NCBI GenBank assembly: GCA_021815645.1
Contig: JAKBAB010000009.1
Coordinates: 1 to 36,641 of the forward strand
Reading direction: 5' to 3'
Origin: Actinomycetes bacterium
GTDB taxonomy: Bacteria > Actinomycetota > Acidimicrobiia > Acidimicrobiales > RAAP-2
DNA: 36,641 bases
The position numbers were made by a program, and so were the translations under genes. The first letter of the stretch is position 1. Each line of letters begins with the position of its first letter. Below the pieces are notes generated by a model, which was not told where the DNA came from, ran no database searches, and was given only the letters and a program-made list of their open reading frames with translations. Positions 24,625-27,819 of this stretch are shown piece after piece.

Positions 24625-25026
24625 CTACTCGGGCTGTCGCGAGATTCGGTCGGGGCGAATGGTCACGGTTACGCGAATCTCGCCCTCGCGGTGATCGCCG
24701 AATCGGTCCGCACCGACGTACTTCTTGGCCAGTCGATCGATGACTTCGTCGGCGCCAATCGTCGTGAAGCCGACGACCGTGCCGCGAACGGCGATCGACG
24801 TCGAGGGATCGTCGGGGTCGGTGAGGGACACCGCTACCCGGGGGTCGGTGGCCAAGTTGCGGGCCTTCGCTCGGCCGAGGGCGGTATTGATGACGATGCA
24901 TTCACCGTCGAGTTCGACCCACACGGGCGTGACGTTCGGTGCCCCGTCGCCGTCGAGAGTGGCGACGTGGGCCAGTACGCGCTTAGCGAAAATCGCTCGA
25001 GAACTTTCGGTGAAGGTATCGGACAC
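24625..25026 (-). CDS. PPOX-class flavin/F420-binding protein
   Basis: A 133-residue pyridoxamine-5'-phosphate-oxidase-fold protein, similar in length and pattern to the actinobacterial PPOX-class F420-dependent enzymes (Rv1155-like). Visible: AHVATLDGDGAPNVTPVWVE as the N-terminal strand pair, INTALGRAKARNLATDPRVA as the cofactor phosphate-binding region, and RGTVVGF and DRLAKKYVG before the C-terminal strands. Whether the cofactor is FMN, F420 or haem cannot be decided from sequence. The GTG at 25026 is chosen because TGGAG lies four bases upstream; longer in-frame starts run into the divergent endonuclease IV gene. The two divergent starts are 43 bp apart. Confidence 0.85.
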   Translation of the reverse strand: MSDTFTESSRAIFAKRVLAHVATLDGDGAPNVTPVWVELDGECIVINTALGRAKARNLATDPRVAVSLTDPDDPSTSIAVRGTVVGFTTIGADEVIDRLAKKYVGADRFGDHREGEIRVTVTIRPDRISRQPE

Positions 25027-25030
25027 GTTT

Positions 25031-25035
25031 CTCCA
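25031..25035 (-). promoter_or_regulatory. Shine-Dalgarno TGGAG of the PPOX gene
   Basis: TGGAG on the minus strand, four bases ahead of GTG 25026. It decides this start. Confidence 0.5.
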
Positions 25036-25056
25036 ATCGACGGGGCGGCCGCCTAC

Positions 25057-25062
25057 TAGTTT
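25057..25062 (+). promoter_or_regulatory. -10-like TAGTTT before the endonuclease IV gene
   Basis: TAGTTT ends seven bases before ATG 25070, and there is no Shine-Dalgarno. The spacing fits leaderless transcription. It lies in the 43-bp divergent gap with the PPOX gene. Confidence 0.4.
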
Positions 25063-25069
25063 TACAGTA

Positions 25070-26422
25070 ATGAACATAGGCGCACACGTACGTGGGGGTG
25101 GCACGCTCATCCCCTCCCTCCAAGCGGGGGTCGATATCGGGGCCACGTCGGTCCAGGTATTCACCCAGAGTCCTCGGATGTGGAAGCCCAGTCAGTATTC
25201 GCCCGAGGTCCTGAGCGCGTTTCGCGAAGAGCAGAAGAAACACCCTACGGTTACTACGACCTTTTGTCACGCTACCTACCTCATCAACTTGGCCTCGGCG
25301 GACCGTGATCTGTACGAGCGATCGGTGACTTGCCTCACCCACAATCTTTCGGTGTCTCGCGGAATGGGGTCTTCCGGACTCGTTTTGCACGTTGGTTCCC
25401 ACCTCGGTGCAGGTTTCGACGGAGTGCTCAATCAAATAGCGGACGGTCTTAGTCGGGCGTTGGCCGATGCGGAACACACTCCAACCGGTGTCGATGACTG
25501 CCCCATTTTGATCGAGAACGCTGCGGGCACGGGGGGCACCGTTGGTCGGTCTCTCGACGAGATTGCGGCGCTGATTGACGCGTGCGACGATGATGTTCGC
25601 CTTGGTCTGTGCCTGGACACGCAACACTTGTGGGCGAGCGGAATTAACTTTTCGACCGTCGACGGTGCGCAGGATCTCGTGGAGTCCGTGTCTCAAGCGG
25701 TGGGCCTGGAACGTCTGCGGTGTCTGCACCTTAACGACTCGAAGATTGAACTGGGAGGCAATCGTGACCGTCACGCCAATATTGGTGAGGGGACGATTGG
25801 ACCGTGGGGACTCGCCCCGCTCGTAGGTCACCCCAAGGTGCGTGACCTACCCTTGCTACTCGAAGTGCCCGGAGTCGGTGACGGCCCGCGGGCCGAAGAC
25901 GTCGCTGCGGCCCGTTCGGTCGTGACGTCAGGGATCTCCCTCTACGACGGAGACGCTGAGTCGGTCGAAATCGCCCGGAATGCGACACTGGCGAGATATA
26001 TCGCGCACAGTGAAGTTTTCGGTGGCGGGGCGACGGCGTCGGTGAAGTCCTCTCCTAAAACAGTTTCTTCCCCTGCGAAGAGTCCTAAATCTGCGAAGAA
26101 AACAGCGAAGACCGCAAAGAAGTCAACAAAGAAGTCAACGAAGAAGTCAACGAAGAAGTCAACGAAGAAGTCCGTGAATTCTTCGGAGAAGAAGAGTTCT
26201 AAATCTGCGAAGAAAACAGCGAAGACCGCAAAGAAGACCGCAAAGAAGACCGCAAAGAAGACCGCAAAGAAGACCGCAAAGAAGTCTGATACGAAGAAGA
26301 CGCCCAAAGCGGCTAAGTCTGCGAAGAAAACAAAGAAGACCGCAAAGAAGTCTGATACGAAGAAGACGCCCAAAGCGGCTAAGTCTGCGAAGAAGAGTAC
26401 TAAATCCGCGAAAAAGAAGTAG
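25070..26422 (+). CDS. nfo: endonuclease IV with a histone-H1-like lysine-rich C-terminal tail
   Basis: A 450-residue protein. Residues 1-315 are a TIM-barrel AP endonuclease that cuts 5' of abasic sites. All nine metal ligands of the E. coli enzyme have counterparts: His67, His107, Glu149, Asp183, His186, His220, Asp233, His235 and Glu265. Motifs include [33 protein letters not shown] and RHANIGEG. Residues 326-450 are a low-complexity tail with about 53 lysines in 125 residues, otherwise Ala, Ser, Thr and Pro, with three acidic residues and no aromatic ones. The repeats read STKK and TAKK, like linker histone tails or the tail of mycobacterial HupB. E. coli Nfo is 285 residues and has no such tail. 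The tail probably binds DNA or RNA non-specifically (inference). Start is ATG 25070, since MNIGAHV is the family N-terminus. fumC follows after five bases. Confidence 0.95.
26085..26236 (+). repeat. 38-bp direct repeat pair in the nfo tail
   Basis: Identical 38-base copies at 26085-26122 and 26199-26236, 114 bases apart, encoding [13 protein letters not shown]-type sequence. The identity at DNA level, not only protein level, points to duplication by slippage or recombination. Confidence 0.9.
26123..26170 (+). repeat. 12-bp tandem repeat, four copies (STKK)
   Basis: Unit TCAACGAAGAAG, four in-frame copies with one mismatch (first copy TCAACAAAGAAG). Each encodes Ser-Thr-Lys-Lys. Confidence 0.95.
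26225..26284 (+). repeat. 12-bp tandem repeat, five perfect copies (TAKK)
   Basis: Unit ACCGCAAAGAAG, five identical in-frame copies encoding Thr-Ala-Lys-Lys. A sixth copy occurs within the downstream 64-bp repeat. Copy number is a natural site for variation between strains, always in steps of four residues. Confidence 0.95.
26265..26394 (+). repeat. 64-bp near-tandem direct repeat in the nfo tail
   Basis: Identical copies at 26265-26328 and 26331-26394, separated by two bases, so the unit repeats with a 66-base step. It encodes [21 protein letters not shown]. The step is a multiple of three, so the frame is kept. Confidence 0.9.
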
Positions 26423-26427
26423 GGATT

Positions 26428-27819
26428 GTGGTTAGCCAGGTAAGAGTTGAGTCGGACACCATGGGGACAATCGAGGTTCCCGCCGAGCACTATTGGGGAG
26501 CCCAGACCCAGCGCAGTTTGCATCATTTTGCGATCGGACACGAGACCATGCCCTCGGCTCTGATTCGAGCATTCGGCGCACTAAAATTGGCGTCGGCTCG
26601 AGTCAATAGAGATTTAGGAAAACTTGACGCTGAACGCGAATCATTAATTGAGCGGGCCGCGGCCGAGGTATACGACGGAACGCTGGCGAAGGAGTTTCCG
26701 CTGCGTGTATGGCAAACCGGCTCGGGTACTCAAACCAACATGAACGTAAATGAAGTCATCTCAAACCGCGCGATAGAACTCGCCGGTGGCGAAATGGGTT
26801 CTAAGGTGCCAATTCACCCCAACGACGACGTCAATATGTCCCAGTCGTCAAACGATACGTTCCCAACCGCCATGCACATCGCGGCGGTCGTTGAGATTAC
26901 AGAACGGCTAAAGCCCGCCGTGGATCGCTTGCGTCGCGCGCTGTCGGATAAGTCGAACGAGTTCACGAACGTCGTCAAAATTGGGAGAACTCACCTCATG
27001 GACGCGGTGCCGCTCACACTCGGGCAGGAGTTCTCGGGCTACGTGGCCCAGCTCGACGCCGACCTCGCGAGGCTGGATTGCGTGCTTCCGGGTCTTTACG
27101 AACTCGCCGCTGGCGGTACGGCGGTCGGAACAGGCCTTAACACGCATCCGGAGTTCGGAGATCGGGTCGCCGCGGAGATTTCGTCACTGACGGGGCACCC
27201 TTTCGTGAGTGCACCGAACAAATTCGCCTCGTTGGCCGCCCACGACGCTCTGGTGTTCGCCCACGGAGCTCTCAAGACCCTGGCCGCCAGCCTGATGAAG
27301 ATCGCCGACGACATACGGTGGCTCGGTTCCGGGCCACGCTCGGGCCTAGGCGAGTTGCGGCTACCGGAAAATGAGCCGGGCAGTTCCATCATGCCGGGGA
27401 AGGTCAACCCCACCCAGAGTGAAGCGCTCATTATGGTGGGCATACAGGTCTTCGCTAACGACTGCGCGGTGGGGGTGGCCGGGTCGCGCGGCAACCTCGA
27501 ACTGAACGTGTGTAAACCGGTGATGGCGTACGCATTTTGTAACTCCGTCGAACTGCTCGCGGACGCATGCGAACGATTCCGCGAGTTCTGCGTAGAGGGA
27601 ATCGAACCGGACTTCGAGCAGATTGATCACCACCTGCGTAACTCGTTGATGCTCGTTACCGCCCTTAACCCCATCCTTGGTTACGATCGGGCCGCTCAGG
27701 TCGCGAAGCGGGCTCACCGGGAAAGGACGTCTCTCCGCGAAGCGGTAGTGGCGCTCGGTTTTATGACCGGCGAGGAGTTTGATGCGGCGGTAGTTCCCGA
27801 GACTATGACCCACCCATAG
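26428..27819 (+). CDS. fumC: class II fumarate hydratase
   Basis: A 463-residue iron-independent fumarase that interconverts fumarate and malate in the TCA cycle. [24 protein letters not shown] is the typical N-terminus. [17 protein letters not shown] (about 97-113) and the [21 protein letters not shown] region bind substrate. [16 protein letters not shown] contains the catalytic His, and the signature loop [15 protein letters not shown] near 320 carries the catalytic Ser. Length is standard. Start GTG at 26428; an ATG twelve codons in would cut into the conserved N-terminus. Only five bases separate it from nfo, so co-transcription is likely. Confidence 0.97.

Follow-up and report, generated by a model that had tools for sequence, protein, structure and literature searches.

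A histone-like lysine tail on endonuclease IV in one clade of actinobacteria

Does an endonuclease IV (Nfo) that ends in a long lysine-rich extension use it to hold on to DNA, or did the extension arise in assembly, by repeat drift or in a role shared with unrelated enzymes? The question is raised by a gene in a window of 36,641 nucleotides (the whole stretch of DNA analysed here, contig JAKBAB010000009.1 of an Acidimicrobiales bacterium), in which the following parts were distinguished.

25070–26422, + strand: nfo, endonuclease IV with a lysine tail, 450 aa, ATG to stop
25076–25894, + strand: catalytic TIM-barrel core, residues 3–275, with nine invariant metal-ligand positions (profile match, alignment and predicted fold)
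25955–26017, + strand: predicted helix, residues 296–316, between core and tail (AlphaFold2 model)
26021–26419, + strand: lysine tail, residues 318–450, predicted disordered (composition and AlphaFold2)

The TIGR00587 nfo profile covers residues 3–275 at 222.5 bits (cut-off 129.65), four narrower equivalog models score under their cut-offs, and AP_endonuc_2 is the sole match in a Pfam scan. A phmmer search against the PDB matched 2x7v, annotated as ‘probable endonuclease 4’, at 3.6e-48. An alignment of 27 sequences shows no variation at nine residues (H67, H107, E149, D183, H186, H220, D233, H235 and E265), which we take to be the metal ligands of E. coli Nfo. An AlphaFold2 model built on this alignment has pLDDT values mostly >85 in the core and finds its best PDB matches in the endonuclease IV structures 4hno, 2x7v and 1qtw (target-normalised TM 0.89–0.90). 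By family sequence and predicted fold the protein is a DNA-acting member of the Nfo family with an intact core, as the sequence-only reading of this locus had claimed from the barrel and its nine ligands, and the core is presumably a functional endonuclease IV.

Residues 1–300 contain five lysines and carry a net charge of −17. The 133 tail residues comprise 53 K, 23 S, 21 T, 21 A and 5 P with a net charge of +50, close to the earlier estimate of about 125 residues, 53 Lys and a charge near +50. The likeness to the tails of histone H1 and HupB that had been suggested is real; in the model the tail is predicted to be disordered, with pLDDT <50 at residues 318–444 and 446–450 and no secondary structure. 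The GC content of the tail DNA (26020–26419) is 48%, compared with 64% for the window, and the segment is composed of 12-, 66- and 114-base repeats, two of the arrays being 100% identical. It encodes the C-terminal degenerate lysine repeats typical of actinobacterial lysine-repeat DNA-binding proteins. A Phe-rich antisense ORF (25942–26541) was dismissed as the mirror of the lysine codons. Repeat analysis resolved three arrays.

26077–26286, + strand: 114-base repeat, 1.8 copies, 83% matches
26221–26284, + strand: 12-base unit, 5.3 exact copies, encoding KKTA-type repeats
26265–26394, + strand: 66-base unit, 2.0 exact copies

A search for loci related to the window returned 69, most of them titled as Acidimicrobiaceae, Acidimicrobiales, Actinomycetes or actinobacterium metagenome assemblies, and many of their isolate names contain palsa, bog or fen. 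At a threshold of 1e-20, 175 of 395 genomes of the class have an Nfo match, as do 12 of 19 within the genus of the window; in the seven same-genus genomes with no such match (G055, G063, G099, G126, G165, G250 and G326) another enzyme may stand in for Nfo, or the cell may do without it. After removal of one cut-off row (L064) and 11 duplicates from 99 loci, 87 rows entered an Nfo tree, which was built by a quick method with SH-aLRT support only and in which the tail label of L098, L099 and L102, whose register differs, was assigned by hand. The window sits in a clade of 54 rows (SH-aLRT 100), to which every one of the 32 rows with at least eight tail lysines also belongs. This clade corresponds to the genus of the window, its members being titled Acidimicrobiaceae or Acidimicrobiales, and it takes in all 12 same-genus (g1) Nfo loci, whether as rows of their own or as copies of a named row. 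Genera g4 and g5 of the same family lie outside, and the four g4 proteins are 290–297 residues long with no tail.

Within the clade the tail varies strongly. Lysines past residue 285 number at least eight in 32 of the 54 rows, two to seven in 18 and zero or one in four, the counts for seven contig-cut rows being minimum values. Some rows have no tail or a bare KKK end, others a short end of the LYAKKK kind, and the tail of L017 reaches about 250 residues; the repeated units differ as well (KKSAAKK, PAKK, KATKATK). Even close relatives are unlike in length, with Nfo proteins of 400 aa in L013 vs 355 aa in L015 and of 462 aa in L025 vs 406 aa in L033. A tail that compensates for an unusually acidic core is unsupported: the median net charge of the first 285 residues is −11 in the 54 clade rows and −13 in the 33 others, and within the clade core charge and tail lysines are modestly correlated, with a Spearman coefficient of −0.35 (p = 0.01, uncorrected for relatedness).

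Outside the clade, 20 loci from the class and 60 from the phylum, where Nfo was found in 275 of 396 genomes, were picked mainly for long open frames and read in tblastn-anchored frames. Each of the 80 frames could be followed to its stop codon, and a lysine-rich C-terminus (at least 8 K in 30) was found in none of these sampled loci. One of them, L287, is the same gene as L085 and hence a clade member without tail lysines, which leaves 0 of 79 actinobacterial loci outside the clade, mainly long-frame picks, with a tailed Nfo. The statement that such a tail is not standard on Nfo therefore held up, and among the loci read the lysine tail on Nfo is confined to one clade. Among the few non-actinobacterial loci covered, a Planctomycetota Nfo (L070) ends in five lysines.

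The gene neighbourhood bears on whether the tail belongs to the gene.

26428–27819, + strand: fumC, class II fumarase, conserved neighbour (TIGR00979, 736.8 bits; synteny)
24625–25164, − strand: PPOX-class F420-dependent oxidoreductase, divergent conserved neighbour (TIGR03618, 102 bits; synteny)

In the window, five bases separate the nfo stop codon from the listed fumC start, and the listed PPOX ORF overlaps the nfo start; the true PPOX start probably lies further inside this ORF. The divergent oxidoreductase adjoins nfo in 49 of the 49 clade rows compared (of 54; L083–L086 were left out) and fumC comes next in 42; the contigs of the remaining seven break off before the nfo stop codon. From this shared setting it follows that tailed and tailless Nfo are orthologues, and the interval between core and fumC is what changes length. 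An assembly artefact or misjoin as the maker of the tail could draw on the repeats, which may disturb assembly, and on the seven of 54 clade contigs broken before the nfo stop (L012, L020, L021, L024, L034, L039 and L041), which make exact tail lengths in metagenome assemblies less sure. It is extremely improbable nonetheless, because tails with differing repeat units, in frame with the nfo core, occupy one syntenic place in many separately assembled genomes, and fumC comes next in 42 of the 42 clade rows whose contigs extend past nfo. As to the existence of the tail, misjoin is refuted. The sequence-only reading had named absence from close relatives through assembly error as a finding that would speak against it; the absence proved partial, with 22 of 54 clade rows below eight lysines and 32 at or above, and the error did not bear out given the conserved synteny.

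The explanation that we prefer, at a probability of roughly 58% and by analogy with known lysine-tailed proteins, is that the Nfo tail acts as a polycationic, disordered, nonspecific DNA tether on an AP endonuclease. In-frame repeat growth would lengthen the C-terminus, presumably from a short basic end, into a disordered polycation, while the folded core would keep locating and incising abasic sites through its metal centre. The flexible tail would attach to the DNA backbone by charge, irrespective of sequence, would raise the local concentration of the enzyme on DNA and could slow its dissociation both before and after incision; both the DNA tethering and its repair benefit are what we infer here. 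Under this proposal tail length and motif would be free to vary because net positive charge and disorder alone matter. With 22 of the clade rows below eight lysines and four at zero or one, a long tail is dispensable, and the short-tailed relatives together with a weak selection signal argue against a strong function of the tail.

Repeat drift would account for much of this variation: a C-terminus that was short and basic would have grown by DNA slippage into a disordered tail that is nearly neutral for Nfo, subject at most to selection against harmful (acidic, hydrophobic) residues. The exact 12- and 66-base repeats, the diverging lengths of close relatives (L013/L015, L025/L033) and the rows with almost no tail lysines all favour it. 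Codon usage points the other way. In 31 Nfo tails with 2,829 codons, lysine makes up 31.7% (AAG 781, AAA 115), next to 20 N, 25 E, 12 Q and 44 AGR codons. One A-to-G step away from AAG, the charge-reversing GAG (12) is rarer than the charge-keeping AGG (34; binomial p = 0.0016), and the test on GAR (25) vs AGR (44) is weaker (p = 0.029); codons derived from AAA are without the same bias (GAA 13, AGA 10). All these p-values are too favourable, since the codons were pooled from related sequences. Drift is further opposed by tails that stay lysine-rich in loci of some 72% GC (L063, L065), against base composition, and by the scarcity of similar stretches elsewhere, the only comparable non-Nfo stretches in 669,634 bases of loci being those of L002–L004, which were selected for having one. 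By eye, lysine is conserved in the clade tails and the small residues between the lysines are variable.

Substitution rates carry little weight as evidence of selection. In an initial comparison of 19 tail pairs, dN/dS was 0.07–0.53 in 18 and 1.28 in the short-tailed pair L028–L030. The pN/pS of homologous Nfo tails (0.27–0.53, nine pairs) overlaps that of a control of non-homologous Nfo–GlnII tail alignments (median 0.50, n = 80), because protein-guided alignment lines up lysines, and lies barely under it, as repeat drift would have it; GlnII tails compared with each other gave 0.46 (190 pairs). Taken together, selection for positive tail charge is plausible from these sequences, with a weakly positive signal, and we regard repeat drift as an unlikely explanation.

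Other proteins of these bacteria complicate the idea of repair coupled to chromatin. In the window's genome, topoisomerase I (TopA, a partial ORF) and the glutamine synthetase GlnII are likewise lysine-tailed.

L002:235–1659, + strand (contig C15 of the window's genome): glutamine synthetase GlnII with a basic tail (NF041605, 581.7 bits)

A basic tail of 33–86 residues is present in 20 of the 20 complete same-genus GlnII copies read (loci L109–L128 and L200–L204), four further copies cut by contig ends being left out of the count. Outside the genus none of the 25 class loci read has one, including those of the same-family genus g2; this count leaves out 32 more matching genomes that gave no locus. 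The tail is present in G055, G063 and G099, though these genomes have no Nfo match. GlnII is an enzyme of nitrogen metabolism, not of DNA, and yet its tail is histone-like. Arginine is about as frequent as lysine in the GlnII tails of L119 and L120, and the tail of G067 (L201) is arginine-rich (R8, K1), as would be expected if charge, not lysine, matters.

All 31 same-genus genomes searched gave a match to HU, and a lysine tail is missing from each of the 30 same-genus loci read (L105, L169–L197), L191 having an aberrant end. A sample of 212,887 bases, 11% of the window's genome, contains no tail of Nfo strength and two weaker lysine-rich stretches, one in a 378-residue ORF (L130) and one at the end of a 93-residue ORF (L140). 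A search of 21 genomes with the Nfo tail alone gave matches at E ≤ 10 in five, the window being the sole strong one; composition correction blunts such a search, so any count of tailed proteins in a genome is a minimum. Two further observations concern lysine-rich sequence of other kinds. On contig C2 of the window's genome, L107:1423–1692 (− strand) is a free-standing Lys/Ala/Pro-rich frame of 90 codons (AKKAPAKKAAKK...) with no family match, perhaps a putative tail-only, H1-like protein. L003:1450–2451 (− strand) encodes a helix-turn-helix protein with a lysine-rich stretch inside.

The tail on Nfo, TopA and GlnII could therefore be a genus-wide feature that serves either binding to a common polyanion (nucleic acid, polyphosphate, ribosome or membrane) or the supply of lysines for acetylation or pupylation. 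This is supported by the restriction of the GlnII tail to the genus (20 of 20 copies within it, 0 of 25 class loci outside), by the tailed TopA and GlnII of the window's genome, by the presence of a Pup gene and by a TopA review that discusses both modifications for TopA, Ku and HupB (PMC7398561). The arginine-rich GlnII tail of G067 counts against a lysine-modification role there, and overall we judge this explanation rather unlikely. Equally doubtful is a bolder version, in which a shared lysine tail was added independently to Nfo and GlnII, besides topoisomerase I and with HU lacking one, and recruits these enzymes to one and the same polyanionic scaffold (nucleoid, RNA or polyphosphate); if true, it would mean a charge-based organisation of the cell interior, central metabolism included. 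The genus-wide GlnII tail is the more puzzling result and raises the question of whether such tails serve only DNA binding. For the proposed coupling of chromatin-like binding to repair, the DNA-acting carrier with its H1-like tail stands, and the DNA-only reading of the tails is weakened by the 20 tailed GlnII copies and complicated by the untailed HU. The DNA tether nevertheless remains our preferred reading for Nfo, and the clade, in which one enzyme occurs naturally with tails that range from about 0 to about 250 residues, is well suited to measuring the effect of a disordered polycation on a repair enzyme.

In the literature searched, with most subscription journals outside its scope, we found no description of a lysine-tailed Nfo and none of a lysine-rich C-terminal extension of glutamine synthetase. 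Basic extensions on AP endonucleases are known from eukaryotes. Yeast Apn1, an endonuclease IV homologue, has a basic C-terminal extension. Its basic region acts in nuclear targeting, unlike anything expected in bacteria, which have no nucleus; Apn1 is described as having a nuclear localisation sequence (PMC4428415). The lysine-rich N-terminus of human APE1 may stabilise nonspecific association with nucleic acid (PMC8396254), and APE1 resembles the window Nfo in carrying a basic extension on an AP endonuclease; it differs in its catalytic fold, in the N-terminal position of the extension and in being eukaryotic. Among bacterial endonuclease IV proteins (TIGR00587; 4hno, 2x7v, 1qtw) the window Nfo is alike in core, nine ligand positions and predicted fold, whereas the matched PDB chains, at 258–307 residues, leave no room for a tail of this type.

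Prokaryotic DNA-binding proteins have low-complexity regions that are enriched in lysine (PMC6821194). With HupB and histone H1 the window Nfo shares a tail rich in Lys, Ala, Pro, Ser and Thr, in which KAAK occurs twice, and many relatives contain PAKK, both motifs being named in PMC5676037; no HU or H1 globular domain accompanies them, AP_endonuc_2 being the only Pfam match. The same paper describes the C-terminal domain of HupB as crucial for binding DNA, and the untailed HU of the window's genus is unlike the tailed HupB of mycobacteria and other actinobacteria (PMC5676037). A further parallel is TopA (also Ku, HupS/HupB and HrdB) of actinobacteria, in which lysine repeats sit on a DNA-acting protein as in the window Nfo; the Streptomyces TopA repeats stabilise the enzyme–DNA complex, and Ku and HupB need their tails to interact with DNA (PMC7398561). 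Lysine repeats on actinobacterial DNA-binding proteins are thus already published in these two sources (PMC7398561, PMC5676037), and what is new is Nfo as their carrier. Unlike the TopA-type carriers, it is an AP endonuclease with a tail of highly variable length within one genus, and through it a base-excision-repair nuclease joins the actinobacterial proteins with histone-like lysine tails.
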